This document shows positions 5,404 to 11,708 of a stretch of 23,571 nt of DNA, piece by piece. The DNA is from a virus, in the IMG/VR virus record IMGVR_UViG_3300025379_000078, positions 1 through 23,571 of that record; one strand, written 5' to 3'. Every line of letters begins with the position of its first letter. The stretch's first letter is position 1. Below the pieces are notes generated by a model that saw only the letters and a list, made by a program, of their open reading frames with translations, had not been told where the DNA came from and did no database searches. The position numbers and the translations under genes are program-made.

Positions 5404-5450
5404 TAGGCGATATGATAGAAACACGCTCCAAAACAGGAAAAGAGGTCATT

Positions 5451-5612
5451 ATGCAAAAAACCATGTCGATTATCGTGCCGACGGAGTTGCTCGACGGTTT
5501 GACGGAAATTGCAAAACGCGAGGATCGGACGGTTTCTAGCTTGGTCCGAGTTGCGCTGCGGGCGTTCCTTGAACGTGAGCGTATCGAGGATGAGGCTAGG
5601 GATGATGCATGA
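5451..5612 (+). CDS. Ribbon-helix-helix (CopG/Arc-type) regulator
   Basis: A 53-aa protein: a short beta strand (KTMSIIVPTELLDGL), helix (LLDGLTEIAKRED), turn (RTVSS) and second helix (SLVRVALRAFLERERIED). This is the Arc/MetJ/CopG dimer fold, which binds DNA operators through the paired beta strands. The ATG at 5451 has AGAGG seven bases upstream; an earlier in-frame ATG at 5412 lacks a site. It is divergent from the leftward promoter 50 bases away, so self-regulation or early-gene control is a reasonable inference. Confidence 0.8.
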   Translation: MQKTMSIIVPTELLDGLTEIAKREDRTVSSLVRVALRAFLERERIEDEARDDA

Positions 5613-6313
5613 GCGCGACACCGTGGATGCCTCTGTACGTCGCTGATTACCTAGCGGACACCGGCCACTTATCCACCGATGAGCATGGGGCGTACCTGTT
5701 GCTCATCATGCACTACTGGCGCACGGGAGGCTTGCCTGACGATGACACGCGCCTTGCCAGCATCACTCGATTGGGCAAACGGTGGCTCAAAGTCTCTCAA
5801 ACAGTGCGCGATTTCTTTCACGCCGAAAATGGAATGCTAAAGCACAAGAGAATAGACTTGGAACTAGCTAAGGCATTGAAAATTCGCGATATCAGGGTAG
5901 CAGGAGGTATAGCAAGATCGCAGCAGCGTTATAGCAAGCCGCTAGCAGAATGCCAGCAGGAGGCTAGCCAATCACAGTCACAGTCACAGCTACAATCACA
6001 GCAATTAGAAAGAAGCATAAGAAAACCCCCTCTATCCCCCACTCGCTCGTGCTCGCTGAGTGTGATTATGGAGCCTGACGGGTTTGAGGATTTCTGGGCT
6101 GCTTATCCGCGTAAGATCGGCAAAGGTCAGGCCCGCAAAGCCTGGAATGTGGCCGTCACCAAAACGTCAGCCAGTGCCATCGTGCAGGCGTGCGAGGGTT
6201 ATCGCTGGACCGGATCGGAAAAATACACGCCTCACCCGGCAACGTGGTTGACCGGAGAACGGTGGACTGACGAAAGACCAACGGAAGTAGATTTCTTGGA
6301 GGGACTGACATGA
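5609..6313 (+). CDS. DUF1376 (YdaU-like) phage replication-type protein
   Basis: A 234-aa protein with two domains. Residues 5-70 (PWMPLYVADYLADTGHLS, EHGAYLLLIMHYW, RTGGLPDDDTRLASI) are a clear DUF1376 domain, which occurs in phage replication initiation regions. Residues about 158-222 (FWAAYPRKIGKGQARKAW, YTPHPATWLTGERW) match the C-terminal module common in phage O-like replication proteins. A Gln/Ser linker joins them. Start overlaps the upstream stop as ATGA. It probably binds DNA or loads the helicase, but no biochemical role is proven for the family. Confidence 0.8.
   Translation: MSATPWMPLYVADYLADTGHLSTDEHGAYLLLIMHYWRTGGLPDDDTRLASITRLGKRWLKVSQTVRDFFHAENGMLKHKRIDLELAKALKIRDIRVAGGIARSQQRYSKPLAECQQEASQSQSQSQLQSQQLERSIRKPPLSPTRSCSLSVIMEPDGFEDFWAAYPRKIGKGQARKAWNVAVTKTSASAIVQACEGYRWTGSEKYTPHPATWLTGERWTDERPTEVDFLEGLT
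5972..6001 (+). repeat. TCACAG tandem repeat coding the Gln/Ser linker
   Basis: Copies of TCACAG at 5972, 5978, 5984 and 5996. The first three are adjacent, and they code for the repeated Ser-Gln linker of the DUF1376 protein. Such a tract can change length by slippage in 6-base steps without breaking the frame. Confidence 0.85.
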
Positions 6314-6774
6314 CCAAGCAGGAACAATTTTTTCGCGCACTCGCAAAGTTGGTGCAGCCCGATGATCCCGAAGCGGCTTATCAGGCTCTTAAGCCAATGG
6401 CCGCAATGCTGACCAGCACGCCGGAGAGAGTGTGGCAATCTCGGCAATGCTTGGAAGCAATCGCAACAGCCAAGCGCAGGACGATTGTGCCTAACTACGC
6501 CGATCTGCAATCCGCAATCGGGCAATGGCTCAGGGACAACCCGGACACAACAGCGATACCGGACGATCGCATGTCAGGCTGGTCTGAGATGGACCGGCGG
6601 TGGCTGGATTTTTATCGCACACGCAAGGCGGAGGGTTTCGTGCCTCGAGGCAGGTCAAACCTCATGAGCCTGATCGGGCAGCAGGCACCCGCGATATTGC
6701 CGTTTATAGCCGCAGAGGAGCGCGTAGAGCCTGGTGCGGGGAGGCGCTGGTATGATGATACCGGAGAGAAGTGA
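6310..6774 (+). CDS. Hypothetical protein following the replication gene
   Basis: A 154-aa, mostly helical protein. Start overlaps the DUF1376 stop as ATGA, so the two are translated together. The first 75 residues (FFRALAKLVQPDDPEAAYQALKPM... RTIVPNYADLQSAI) resemble the helical N-terminal part of phage proteins beside O-like genes. A helicase-loader role would suit the position, but there is no Walker motif and no firm family match. It is the last gene of this short rightward block. Confidence 0.6.
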   Translation: MTKQEQFFRALAKLVQPDDPEAAYQALKPMAAMLTSTPERVWQSRQCLEAIATAKRRTIVPNYADLQSAIGQWLRDNPDTTAIPDDRMSGWSEMDRRWLDFYRTRKAEGFVPRGRSNLMSLIGQQAPAILPFIAAEERVEPGAGRRWYDDTGEK

Positions 6775-7737: not shown

Positions 7738-8586
7738 TTAGGCAGCGATGCGCTTCGCTTCAAACGCTTGGATGTAATCCGCTGCCTTGGACGCCTTGGA
7801 TGCAGCTGCAACTACCGATTTGTTGTCAGCTTTCATCGCTGTAATCCAAGACGCCAAATAATCAGCATGACGAACGGCGGGCTCTACGCCCAAAGACGCG
7901 CACAAAAACGCGCTGGTCATTTCCGCCGTCAATTCCTCAATTGCGTATGCGTGGTCTCCGAACCGTCTACCGAACTGCCGATCTAACCGGCTGGCATGGC
8001 CGGTCCAATGCCCAAGTTCGTGTAGTGCGACCTGATACCAACCCATCGGATTAGGAAATGCACTAAGGGGAGGCATCACAACGTGATCCGCAGTAGGGTT
8101 ATAATAGGCGCGGTCGCCGCTAATCATTACGTGCGCCCCTGTGTTGGCGATCAAATCGTCGGCAGCAATGTGCTGTTGCGGTACGCTTAACGGCAAACGC
8201 TCTGCAATCGCAGCCAAACCCGAACATTGGGCAGCGTTGAAAACAGTGTACGATTTGAGGAAAAATATAGGCTTTGCATCATCCCCCTTCGGCATAAACC
8301 GATCGGCATAAACAACCGAGGTGCCCTTCTCTCCCTTCATCACGGAACCGCCAAGCGCAACCGCCTGCTTGAATGTAAGCCACGATTGCGAGCCGAACCG
8401 CGATCCGGCGATCCACAACAGGGGGATGTTAATCCCGGAATACGCTTTCCCTGTAACCGCGTTGTGGGGCAATTTCGTGGTGGTGGCGTTGCCATCCTTC
8501 CACGGCTTAACCCAAGGAATGCAACCCGCCTCTAATTGAGCGAGGATACTGTCAGTCACGGCTTGATAGATATCGGTTTTGGTCAC
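7738..8586 (-). CDS. ArdC-type antirestriction protein
   Basis: A 282-aa protein if it starts at the GTG at 8586, which has AGGGGA seven bases upstream. An in-frame ATG at 8661 would add a Ser/Thr/Ala-rich stretch and overlap the preceding gene. The N-terminal domain (DIYQAVTDSILAQLEAG, PWVKPW, NAVTGKAYSGIN) is the ssDNA-binding ArdC/TraC domain. The C-terminal domain has the zinc metallopeptidase motif HELGHWTGH (about 189-197), then YAIEELTAEM with the likely third ligand. ArdC proteins protect incoming single-stranded DNA from host restriction. In a phage this would act early after injection. Family assignment is strong; peptidase targets are not known. Confidence 0.88.
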   Translation of the reverse strand: MTKTDIYQAVTDSILAQLEAGCIPWVKPWKDGNATTTKLPHNAVTGKAYSGINIPLLWIAGSRFGSQSWLTFKQAVALGGSVMKGEKGTSVVYADRFMPKGDDAKPIFFLKSYTVFNAAQCSGLAAIAERLPLSVPQQHIAADDLIANTGAHVMISGDRAYYNPTADHVVMPPLSAFPNPMGWYQVALHELGHWTGHASRLDRQFGRRFGDHAYAIEELTAEMTSAFLCASLGVEPAVRHADYLASWITAMKADNKSVVAAASKASKAADYIQAFEAKRIAA

Positions 8587-8608
8587 GGGATAATCCCCTA
8601 TGTTGTGG

Positions 8609-8622
8609 GGGGCCGAAGCCCC
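8609..8622 (-). other. TTCG-tetraloop hairpin before the ArdC-like gene
   Basis: On the minus strand GGGGC-TTCG-GCCCC, a very stable tetraloop hairpin, lies 14 bases after the previous stop and 22 bases before the preferred GTG. It supports a start downstream of it. It may limit read-through or protect the mRNA; no T tract follows. Confidence 0.55.
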
Positions 8623-8635
8623 GCTGTCTGTTGTT

Positions 8636-8932
8636 TTAGAAGTCGCCGTAGAGCTGGCCATCTTCGCCGAGCCAAACGCAGTAATCTCCGACCGGCTCGC
8701 CGTATAAGTCTATGACTGGCACGAGGACCACCGTCACGCCGTCATCGTCATGCCATCGAGCCGGGCCGGTCGTGTGGCCGTCATAGCCCCAGCTCGAGAG
8801 CATGGATTGCGCGTATTCCGTTGCGGCCGCCACCATCCAGGCGCTAAACCAGTACACTGCCGGCTTGTCGGTTGCGATCACATCGGCGCGAGCTGCTTCT
8901 ACTAAACGCATGATGTCTGCGGGAATGTTCAT
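8636..8932 (-). CDS. Hypothetical protein, first gene of antirestriction block
   Basis: A 98-aa acidic protein. Residues 1-47 look helical (MNIPADIMRLVEAARADVI, AWMVAAATEYAQSML) and the rest beta-rich (GVTVVLVPVIDLYG, DYCVWLGEDGQLYGDF). Start supported by GGAGA nine bases upstream. It leads the leftward block with the ArdC-like gene, so a counter-defence function is possible, but nothing in the sequence proves it. Confidence 0.6.
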   Translation of the reverse strand: MNIPADIMRLVEAARADVIATDKPAVYWFSAWMVAAATEYAQSMLSSWGYDGHTTGPARWHDDDGVTVVLVPVIDLYGEPVGDYCVWLGEDGQLYGDF

Positions 8933-9062
8933 GTCTTCGTCTCCGTGGCGTGATTGCCTAAGCGCATACTGCCAGAGCTAGACCTGGTTGTGTGTCTTAT
9001 CTTTTCACCGTTTGTCGTATTTTATTGCAGCCTGCTGTCGCAATCTCTTCCCCTGCGTGCGC

Positions 9063-9114
9063 GTCTATAGCTCTACAGCTCTATAGCTCTATAGCTATAG
9101 CTATATATCTATAG
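9063..9114. repeat. CTCTATAG tandem repeat tract
   Basis: Units in order: gTCTATAG, CTCTACAG, CTCTATAG, CTCTATAG, CTATAG, CTATATAT, CTATAG. The 8-base unit repeats almost perfectly four times and then shortens. Each CTATAG is its own reverse complement. The tract is AT-rich inside GC-rich flanks, as expected for a strand-opening element or an iteron-like binding array. Confidence 0.85.
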
Positions 9115-9124
9115 ACTGCCCACC

Positions 9125-9139
9125 GCGCTGTCGCAGCGC
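9125..9139. other. Perfect hairpin next to the repeat tract
   Basis: GCGCTG (9125-9130) and CAGCGC (9134-9139) with a TCG loop. A wider inverted pair, GCCCAC (9118-9123) and GTGGGC (9155-9160), encloses it. Confidence 0.6.
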
Positions 9140-9149
9140 CACCCAGCAA

Positions 9150-9350
9150 CTCGAGTGGGCAAGTGTGCGGGAGTGCTCCTACTCTGACCGCCCCTCGAGC
9201 TACCGCTCGACCGCCCCTCGAGCACCGCTCGAGCTACCGCTCGACCTCCCCCCGGAACGCTATTTGGGCCAGCAATCTCGACCAGTCTCGAGCATAGACA
9301 TGCTCACGCTTCACGCGCAGCCTGCTCGAGCATTGGACGCCTTCCTCGAG
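9150..9350. repeat. Cluster of seven CTCGAG palindromes
   Basis: CTCGAG starts at 9150, 9194, 9217, 9228, 9287, 9325 and 9345, and the near-copy CTCGAC at 9206, 9240 and 9277. Part of the cluster is a direct repeat of about 23 bases (9188-9210, 9211-9232, partial copy 9233-9244). By eye I find only two further CTCGAG in the window (6644 and 8793). The common form is (C/G)CTCGAGCA. This suggests binding sites for a dimeric protein or a packaging signal. Confidence 0.85.
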
Positions 9351-9456
9351 CATCCGCTCGGCAGGCAAACGGGATGGCCACGGCATGGGCCCTGGGCCCC
9401 CTCATGCGGGTGCCCCTTTCGCAACTCCCCCCAAGAAAAAACCATGTTTGCGGCAC

Positions 9457-9485
9457 TTCAATTATTTGTTAAAACCATATATAAC
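9457..9485 (+). promoter_or_regulatory. Candidate promoter for the late block
   Basis: TTCAAT (9457-9462), 17-base spacer, TATAAC (9480-9485). The -10 matches five of six bases, the -35 only three. It lies in an AT-rich island just before the strong ribosome site at 9492-9497. If used, the leader would be very short. Confidence 0.4.
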
Positions 9486-9506
9486 TTTATGAGGAGGATT
9501 TGTTGT

Positions 9507-9923
9507 ATGGCGATGCGTGAAGAATCATTGAAGCGTTTGAACCGGATACTTGACCGTTGGGCGGTTAATGTTCGGTTGCGGGACATTGCTGATGGGGAGG
9601 GCGTTAGCCTGACCACAATTTTGTCTTACTTGAAGTATGCTCGTGAGACTGGGGACCATCGTGCGCATGTTCGTCGAGTGCGTCCGGCTGAACAGCCTAT
9701 TCGGTTTTTGGATGCGTGTATGCTCTCTGGGAAGGAGGGTGTTTCGTATGATGATCTGAAGGAATTGCTTTGGCCGCACGGTTATTTGCCTGTGTCCTGG
9801 CGGTCAATCATGAGTTTGTGTGCGCAGAAGAATAGGAAGCAGGGACATGCAATCATCGCCTCGAAGCAAAGGTATTACTACGTTGGCGAGGATGAGCCTG
9901 CGGCAAAGGTTGATGCTGAGTAG
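9507..9923 (+). CDS. HTH protein, candidate small terminase subunit
   Basis: A 138-aa protein directly before the large terminase gene. Residues about 4-45 (EESLKRLNRILDRWAVNVRLRDIADGEGVSLTTILSYLKYARETGD) have a helix-turn-helix look, and the C-terminus ends in a strand-like QRYYYVG. Small terminases recognise packaging DNA through an N-terminal HTH, so position and fold agree, but I cannot see a known family signature; a transcription factor is the alternative. AGGAGG at 9492-9497, nine bases before the ATG, fixes the start. The frame is open back to 9165, but that part covers the CTCGAG repeats and is not considered coding. Confidence 0.65.
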   Translation: MAMREESLKRLNRILDRWAVNVRLRDIADGEGVSLTTILSYLKYARETGDHRAHVRRVRPAEQPIRFLDACMLSGKEGVSYDDLKELLWPHGYLPVSWRSIMSLCAQKNRKQGHAIIASKQRYYYVGEDEPAAKVDAE

Positions 9924-9947: not shown

Positions 9948-11708
9948 ATGAAGTTCGATCTTAAGAAGTTCTACAAGTTTTGTTCGGAGCTTCAGATTGA
10001 GACCAAGGAACAGGGTCTGAAGAAACTTGGCACCCTGCTTGGCACTCAGACCTATGTGATGGAGGAGATTCAGAAGGGTCTTGAGAACGATATCCATCAT
10101 TATGTGATTCTGAAAGGGCGTCAGCAAGGCATTACGACAATCAGTCTGGCGTTGGACTTGTATTGGGTGTTCACACATCCGGGTTTGGGTGCGACGTTGG
10201 TGACTGACACGGAGGAAAACCGTGAGATGTTCCGCAGCACTCTTGGCATGTATCACGAGCATTTGCCGCGTGAATGGAAGATGCCGGTTGATAGCCACAA
10301 CCGGAATCAGATGGTGCTGAAGAACCGAAGCCGGTTGTTTTATCAGGTGGCCGGGTTGCGAGCGAAAGGCACTCTGGGGCGCGGCAAAGCTATTACCTAC
10401 CTTCACGGCACGGAGACAAGTTCATGGGGTGATGAGGAGGGTTTGGCGTCCTTGTTGGCTTCGTTGGCGGAAACCAACCCCGACAGGTTGTATATGTTTG
10501 AGAGCACGGCTCGCGGCTTCAACATGTTTCATGACATGTATATCACGGCCAAAAGAGCCAAAACGCAGAAGGCTATTTTCTGCGGTTGGTGGCGGAACGA
10601 GTTCTACTCTGTCGATGCGGAATCTCAGGTTTACAAAGTCTATTGGGATGGTCGATTGACCGGCGAGGAGAAAGAATGGGTCCGGGATATCAAGAAGCTT
10701 TATGGCGTAGAGATCAATTCACGTCAGATGGCTTGGTGGCGTTGGAAACTGTCTGAAGGCATTCGTGATGATGCTTTGATGTATCAGGAGTTTCCGCCCA
10801 CTGAGGACTACGCTTTCATTATGACCGGCAGTTCGTTCTTCTCGAACGCTCGCTGCACGGATGCGATGAAAGACGCGAAGAAGATGGTGCCGGAGGTGTA
10901 TCGCTATGTGATGGGCGCGCACTTTGCCGACACTGAGGTTGTGCGTTCGTCTGACAAGCTGGCAACGCTTAGGATTTGGGAACAGCCGATTGACACGGCT
11001 TACTACGTCATTGGCGCTGACCCGGCGTATGGATCTAGCGATTGGGCAGATAGGTTCTGCATTAGCGTCTGGCGTTGCTACTCGGACGGCATGGAACAGG
11101 TTGCCGAGTTTGCAACCAGTGAAATGAACACTTATCAATTTGCCTGGGTGATTAGTCATCTTGCTGGCGCGTATCGCAATTCAACGCTTAACCTGGAAGT
11201 GAACGGACCTGGACAAGCCGTCATCAATGAGTTGCGCAACTTGCGGCGTCAGGCGGTCAGCATAGGCGGGCAGCACGGTAAAGATCTGATGGATGTGCTG
11301 GGGCATATGTCCAACTACATCTGGCGGAAGAACGACACGTTGAGCGGTCCAAGCAATGCTATGGGATGGGTAACAACGGTATCGTCCAAAGAGCGGATGA
11401 TGAGTTACCTGAAGGACTATTTTGAACGAGGCATGATGCGCGTATGCAGTCAGGATCTGATCGAAGAAATGAAGACCATTCGCCGTGACGGCGCTTCGAT
11501 TGAGGCTGGCGGACGCGGAAAAGATGATCGCGTGATTGGCGCTGCGTTGGCGGCAGCTGCTTATGCTGAACAGGTGCAACCACGATTGGTGGCAATGAAA
11601 CTAAGCCGTGCGGTCAACAAGTCTCAGGAGAACAGGACTCCTGAACAACTCAGCGTGGGCCGCAACGTATCGGACTACCTCAAAAACATTGGCATGTATG
11701 GTTCCTGA
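9948..11708 (+). CDS. terL: Terminase large subunit (packaging ATPase/nuclease)
   Basis: A 586-aa protein that drives DNA into the prohead and cuts it. The ATPase domain shows the Walker A variant ILKGRQQGITT (Lys56, Arg58, Gly61, Thr63) typical of terminases, and a Walker B-like ITYLHGTETSSW with Glu156 as likely catalytic residue. The coupling motif region MFESTARG is at about 183-190. The RNase H-like nuclease has Asp358 (VIGADPAYG), Glu417 (NLEVNG) and Asp526/527 (GKDDRVIGAAL). All acidic residues are present, so it should be active. GGAG lies nine bases before the ATG. It overlaps the next gene as TGATG. Confidence 0.95.
   Translation: MKFDLKKFYKFCSELQIETKEQGLKKLGTLLGTQTYVMEEIQKGLENDIHHYVILKGRQQGITTISLALDLYWVFTHPGLGATLVTDTEENREMFRSTLGMYHEHLPREWKMPVDSHNRNQMVLKNRSRLFYQVAGLRAKGTLGRGKAITYLHGTETSSWGDEEGLASLLASLAETNPDRLYMFESTARGFNMFHDMYITAKRAKTQKAIFCGWWRNEFYSVDAESQVYKVYWDGRLTGEEKEWVRDIKKLYGVEINSRQMAWWRWKLSEGIRDDALMYQEFPPTEDYAFIMTGSSFFSNARCTDAMKDAKKMVPEVYRYVMGAHFADTEVVRSSDKLATLRIWEQPIDTAYYVIGADPAYGSSDWADRFCISVWRCYSDGMEQVAEFATSEMNTYQFAWVISHLAGAYRNSTLNLEVNGPGQAVINELRNLRRQAVSIGGQHGKDLMDVLGHMSNYIWRKNDTLSGPSNAMGWVTTVSSKERMMSYLKDYFERGMMRVCSQDLIEEMKTIRRDGASIEAGGRGKDDRVIGAALAAAAYAEQVQPRLVAMKLSRAVNKSQENRTPEQLSVGRNVSDYLKNIGMYGS

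Follow-up and report, generated by a model that had tools for sequence, protein, structure and literature searches.

In lambda-type phages the cos site (cosQ-cosN-cosB) carries in cosB the repeats to which terminase binds, and relative to the cut these repeats are located towards the terminase genes (PMC4669245). At the cos site of HK97, the stretch bound by the small terminase is 15 bp long and begins 15 bp downstream of the cut, and an A-tract (9 bp) adjoining C:G pairs is needed (PMC10370121); the left end of the HK97 genome (NC_002167) reads ...ACCCGATTTTTTTAG. Phages also possess iteron and operator arrays for RHH and HTH regulators, in which many short, partly symmetric words occupy a non-coding divergent junction. 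Short repeats in arrays are the binding sites of some RHH regulators.

We analyzed a stretch of 23,571 bp, hereafter called the window, which is part of a metagenomic phage and which, judging from the sample series and the relatives, is probably of freshwater origin. A near-identical record of the same species (G001, 36,080 bp) contains the window with one mismatch, and its relatives include two genomes of the Manatee Spring set, MW202753 and MW202825. The features of the locus are as follows.

7738 to 8661, minus strand: ArdC-like anti-restriction protein on the left side of the divergent junction; MW202753 has a similar neighbour.
9064 to 9115, no strand: AT-rich block in which CTATAG palindromes occur five times, together with an imperfect inverted repeat of 21 nt.
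9150 to 9360, no strand: the array of seven CTCGAG and three CTCGAC, the densest cluster of a repeated 6-mer in the window.
9385 to 9449, plus strand: the family element, ATGGG ... GCGGGTGCCCC ... CCCCCCAAGAAAAAACCATGTTT, a candidate for the cos-type start of packaging, for the promoter of the late operon, or for both.
9507 to 9923, plus strand: the 9507 product (138 aa), a DNA-binding protein by predicted fold and a candidate small terminase or regulator; first gene of the rightward operon.
9948 to 11708, plus strand: large terminase subunit, TerL (Terminase_6C; phrog_2).

The array region is non-coding and lies at a divergent junction. On one side are mostly leftward early genes (ArdC, RecE, RecT), and on the other are the rightward genes of the 9507 protein, the large terminase, the portal and the major capsid protein. 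A rightward block at 5412-6774 is embedded in the leftward arm, and it encodes an RHH (Arc/CopG-like) protein at 5412-5612 and a replication initiator at 5609-6313, the latter 3 kb from the array. The location of the cluster before the packaging genes, as given in the initial annotation, agrees with this map, which places it in a non-coding control region. In the reading frame of the 9507 gene, no stop codon occurs in the 140 codons that precede its ATG (9087-9506), and this open stretch spans the entire array. In relatives, the frame upstream of the 9507-type ATG is open for 55 codons in L096, for 9-11 in L013 and L017 and for few in most others, and AGGAGG precedes the ATG of the 9507 gene; we therefore rejected the array as coding DNA and regard the open frame as a chance one.

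The number and positions of the palindromes were confirmed by our count. CTCGAG starts at 9150, 9194, 9217, 9228, 9287, 9325 and 9345, and CTCGAC starts at 9206, 9240 and 9277; the remaining CTCGAG of the window are only those at 6644 and 8793. When 9150-9350 was shuffled 2000 times with the dinucleotides preserved, CTCGAG appeared 0.34 times on average and three times at most, as against seven in the real sequence, and the best count of any palindromic 6-mer reached at most five. The cluster is thus beyond chance, as had been supposed from its density. The total in the window was unremarkable (nine, with a mean of 4.9 in shuffles, of which 8 of 100 reached nine), so that what is surprising is the clustering of the word and not its number. 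The count over a fuller genome, which the initial annotation had proposed, gave the same picture: G001 possesses the identical nine sites and none extra, clustered only here.

All 10 copies share the 5-bp core CTCGA, and the other flanking bases differ. The copies are extended in one direction, reading CTCGA(G/C)C (CTCGASC) in 9 of 10, and their spacings (44, 12, 11, 11, 12, 37, 10, 38 and 20) are irregular. Selection on the word itself would be expected to leave such an identical core, a C after the hexamer, differing flanks and irregular spacing. Exact repeats also occur within the array, one of 15 nt at a distance of 23 bp and one of 19 nt at a distance of 34 bp. Direct repeats therefore exist as was reported earlier, but these two describe them better than the single repeat of 23 bases given at that time.

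Adjacent copies pair as short hairpins, for example CTCGAGC-acc-GCTCGAG, several of them of 5-7 bp. There are 11 short perfect hairpins in 9150-9350, compared with 1.7 in shuffles, the part of the window densest in hairpins is 9050-9350, and the array region folds better than shuffles, with a z of -3.8 for one strand and -4.4 for the other. These values might mean that structure and not sequence matters, that is, that the palindromes serve to form hairpins, cruciforms or a structured RNA. We consider this very unlikely, because repeated palindromes yield hairpins automatically and the two strands score alike. In addition, hairpins are not enriched family-wide in the corresponding spacer (mean z 0.46, versus 0.42 in control windows), and no Rfam family matched. 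A structured RNA was rejected on the last two points.

We then compared the array among records. It is unchanged in every contig of the same species that covers the region, and all the records bearing it are near-identical, so that the species shows no variation by which selection on the array could be judged. No CTCGAG was found before the same genes in L013 (large terminase 92% identical, 9507-type protein 56%), in L096 (9507-type protein 77% identical) or in L017-L022, which have the same layout. That is, the array is missing from relatives with the same neighbours, which is the observation that the initial annotation had set in advance as contradicting a maintained signal. By that criterion CTCGAG fails as a conserved signal, and the array is limited to one phage species, probably from freshwater. 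Searches of phage and plasmid collections gave no nucleotide matches. Triple CTCGA(GC) sites are common in viral contigs generally; we thus rejected CTCGAG arrays as a viral hallmark, and the word alone identifies nothing.

The RHH product had been named as a possible regulator of the array. The window does encode an RHH protein, and the array would then be its operator array. Of the four relatives searched, however, only L013 gave a match to this protein (31 aa, 48%), and L013 is without the array; moreover, no CTCGAG cluster lies beside the RHH gene itself. We regard this assignment as extremely improbable and rejected it, since the RHH gene is not shared with the relatives. The array is similar to phage iteron and operator arrays in having many short, partly symmetric words (7 + 3 copies, beyond chance) at a non-coding divergent junction. 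It differs from them in that even close relatives do not share the word, which is absent from L096 and L013, which have a 9507-type protein, and in that the regulator is only a candidate.

The relatives nevertheless have repeats at the same position. In the approximately 200 bp upstream of the element, repeated 7-mers were in excess over shuffles (p <= 0.05) for 30 of the 45 non-redundant relatives. The same was seen in 12 of 43 blocks further upstream, in 7 of 45 just downstream and in 13% of random windows. The spacer of the window is the richest, with 61 repeated 7-mers as against 6.8 in shuffles. The words differ by lineage: GATGCG in MW202825, CTACCTG in L297 and L303, GACAGACAG in L286 and CTCGAG in the species of the window. 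G-run repeats matching the G-quadruplex pattern occur in 7 of 45 spacers, compared with 0.006 per 290 bp elsewhere. These repeats (GGGCATGGGCATGGGCAGGG and similar) lie at -93 to -100 from the element in L017, L018, L021, L050, L072 and L076 and at -176 in L062, and they are absent from the species of the window. Most relatives have two-copy duplications of 7-16 bp. The CTCGAG array is the extreme version, in this species, of a family-wide repeat hotspot.

These observations bring in the main and serious rival to a binding array, namely neutral turnover of repeats, in which the spacer need only exist, slippage or recombination makes the repeats and CTCGAG is an accident of one species. The words that change with lineage, the plain two-copy duplications of most relatives, the near relatives lacking the array and the exact 15- and 19-nt duplications within it are all in its favour. 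However, the repeats concentrate upstream of the element and not in the blocks further upstream or downstream, and ten exact 5-bp cores with diverged flanks and irregular spacing exceed what plain duplication predicts. We think neutral turnover quite possible, though somewhat less probable than a binding array.

The array is followed, before the 9507 gene begins, by an element of about 65 bp, first spotted among the relatives of the large terminase. Its consensus, from 54 aligned non-redundant copies, is TGGGt-n20-G.GTGCnCCCC-n8-CCCCCCA-AAAAAA-nnn-GTTTTCTG. All viral contigs were searched with the core pattern CCCCCCAN{0,3}AAAAAN{2,8}GTTTTCT, using no protein information. The search gave 77 viral stretches, 59 of which encode the same large terminase downstream on the same strand, and across these 59 relatives TerL starts 446-2128 bp downstream of the element. 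In 15 of 16 records checked whole, the strict pattern occurs exactly once (one of the 15, the record of L274, being an unrelated match); the exception, the record of L096, has a variant. The copy in the window is a variant as well, CATGTTTGCGG, which misses the strict pattern. Other carriers among about 60 relatives include L063 and L248. In G001, MW202753 (copy near 35007) and MW202825, the element is at the divergent junction. Throughout a large family of uncultured phages, the place where the packaging genes begin is marked by this element, which offers a DNA-only signature for the family.

The element could serve as a promoter for late genes, as a site for packaging or in both roles. An extended -10-like TGnTAnnnT follows it in 31 of 54 copies, compared with 9% in shuffled letters; the window and its nearest relatives are without this motif after the element. 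With respect to packaging, the element lies just upstream of the terminase genes (the 9507 candidate, then TerL at 9948), where a cos site would be located. Six contigs (L043, L084, L298, L241, L005 and L070) start within 25 nt of one another inside the element, at -23 to -47 from its C-run (scan p about 0.017); these six are verified ends, and storage edges, such as that of L291, which was first taken for a contig end, were excluded. No contig ending at the element from the left was found in a single-lineage search and an array-specific search. The cluster of ends may represent genome ends, or it may be an assembly break or effect at a conserved sequence.

The locus resembles lambda-type cos (PMC4669245) in that a non-coding region of about 200 bp just before the terminase genes contains several short repeated sites, here putatively for a winged-helix protein, and in that repeat specificity differs between relatives, as it does among lambda, 21 and N15. 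Any cut site, cohesive end or terminase binding in the window is putative. In HK97, C:G pairs likewise stand beside an A/T-tract soon after the presumed cut and before the terminase genes; unlike here, no comparable palindrome array appears in the portion of the HK97 description considered (PMC10370121). This likeness is one of layout only, and not of homology.

It is conceivable from this comparison that the array itself belongs to the packaging recognition site, as a cosB- or pac-like region bound by the small terminase, with the element as the cutting site. The position before the terminase genes, the GC-rich, partly dyad GTGCnCCCC of the element followed by a C-run and A-tract comparable to those of HK97, and the six contig ends point in this direction. 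However, cosB repeats lie between cosN and the TerS gene, whereas the array is upstream of the element and not between it and the 9507 gene; that is, it is on the far side from the terminase genes, opposite to both lambda cosB and the TerS site of HK97. The missing left-side contigs and the possible assembly effect also weaken this explanation, and we judge it improbable. A pac/cos signal, which the initial annotation had proposed, may well be present in this region, but the element at 9385-9449 is a better candidate for it, or for a promoter signal, than the palindromes.

An origin of replication had also been suggested, and it would consist of the AT-rich block and an iteron-like array. The block does adjoin the repeats, and in 4 of 5 genomes the cumulative GC-skew minimum is no more than a few hundred bp away. 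But the skew is weak and mostly tracks the coding strand: the rightward genes of the replication region within the leftward arm give positive skew, so that no change of skew independent of transcription direction was seen. The replication initiator, moreover, is 3 kb away. An origin is therefore quite unlikely.

The explanation that we prefer, tentatively and with somewhat less than even confidence, is that the array is a lineage-specific fill of a fast-evolving spacer and that the CTCGASC copies are putative protein sites for the packaging start or the late switch. The spacer of about 200 bp lies between the AT-rich block and the conserved element, where the early and the packaging and structural genes diverge. 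The copies would be multiple sites at which a DNA-binding protein, dimeric or multimeric, attaches in this species, and the most economical candidate is the HTH/winged-helix protein of the adjacent 9507 gene. Once bound along the array, this protein may act on the neighbouring element, with the outcome that DNA packaging starts (cos/pac-like) or the late operon is switched on. The array word would change between lineages along with the protein.

Clustering far beyond chance and repeat enrichment, with different words, at the same spacer position in relatives support this protein-binding array, and the neighbouring 9507 protein probably has a two-domain DNA-binding fold: its AlphaFold model shows a helix-turn-helix at 1-48 and a winged helix at 63-128 (mean pLDDT 86.3). 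The 9507 product gave no match in Pfam and PHROG searches, no fold match with E <= 0.001, and, among its homologues, Sf6_terminase hits of only E 0.01 in 3 of 8. Its earlier designation as small terminase is thus unproven, being without family or fold support. Against the protein-binding array, a 9507-type gene is missing before TerL in many relatives whose spacers are rich in repeats, and the two-copy duplications of most relatives resemble slippage more than operators. Since the array is absent where the 9507-type protein is 77% (L096) or 56% (L013) identical, this protein family either retargets fast or ignores the array.

A species-specific array, a family-wide repeat-prone spacer, an adjoining conserved cis element and an early/late junction are established. 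The first reading of this DNA was therefore a true observation whose interpretation is partly supported. A wider speculation, to which we give little credence, is that the family has a conserved cos or late-control element of about 65 bp and that each lineage rewrites the upstream recognition array as its own packaging or late-switch address, co-evolving with the DNA-binding protein and excluding relatives. The words would then be CTCGAG here and GATGCG, CTACCTG or G-quadruplex-type G-runs elsewhere. The variable arrays, most clearly that of CTCGAG, provide a case in which the divergence of packaging or regulatory specificity among related phages can be tested. The palindrome cluster is a lineage-specific curiosity, and of wider reach is the conserved element, which points to where packaging or late transcription of the family starts, together with the family-wide repeat-prone spacer.

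Two further observations were made on the surroundings of the spacer. On its right side, the gene directly before TerL varies widely in relatives (e.g. L024-L028, L035, L046 and L085) and is often not of the 9507 type, and in L016 (TerL at 1561) extra genes apparently separate the 9507-type protein from the large terminase. On its left side, an AT-rich TATATA block is common in relatives; in the window the CTATAG block (9064-9115) is directly left of the CTCGAG array, and CTATAG and CTCGAG both fit CTnnAG.
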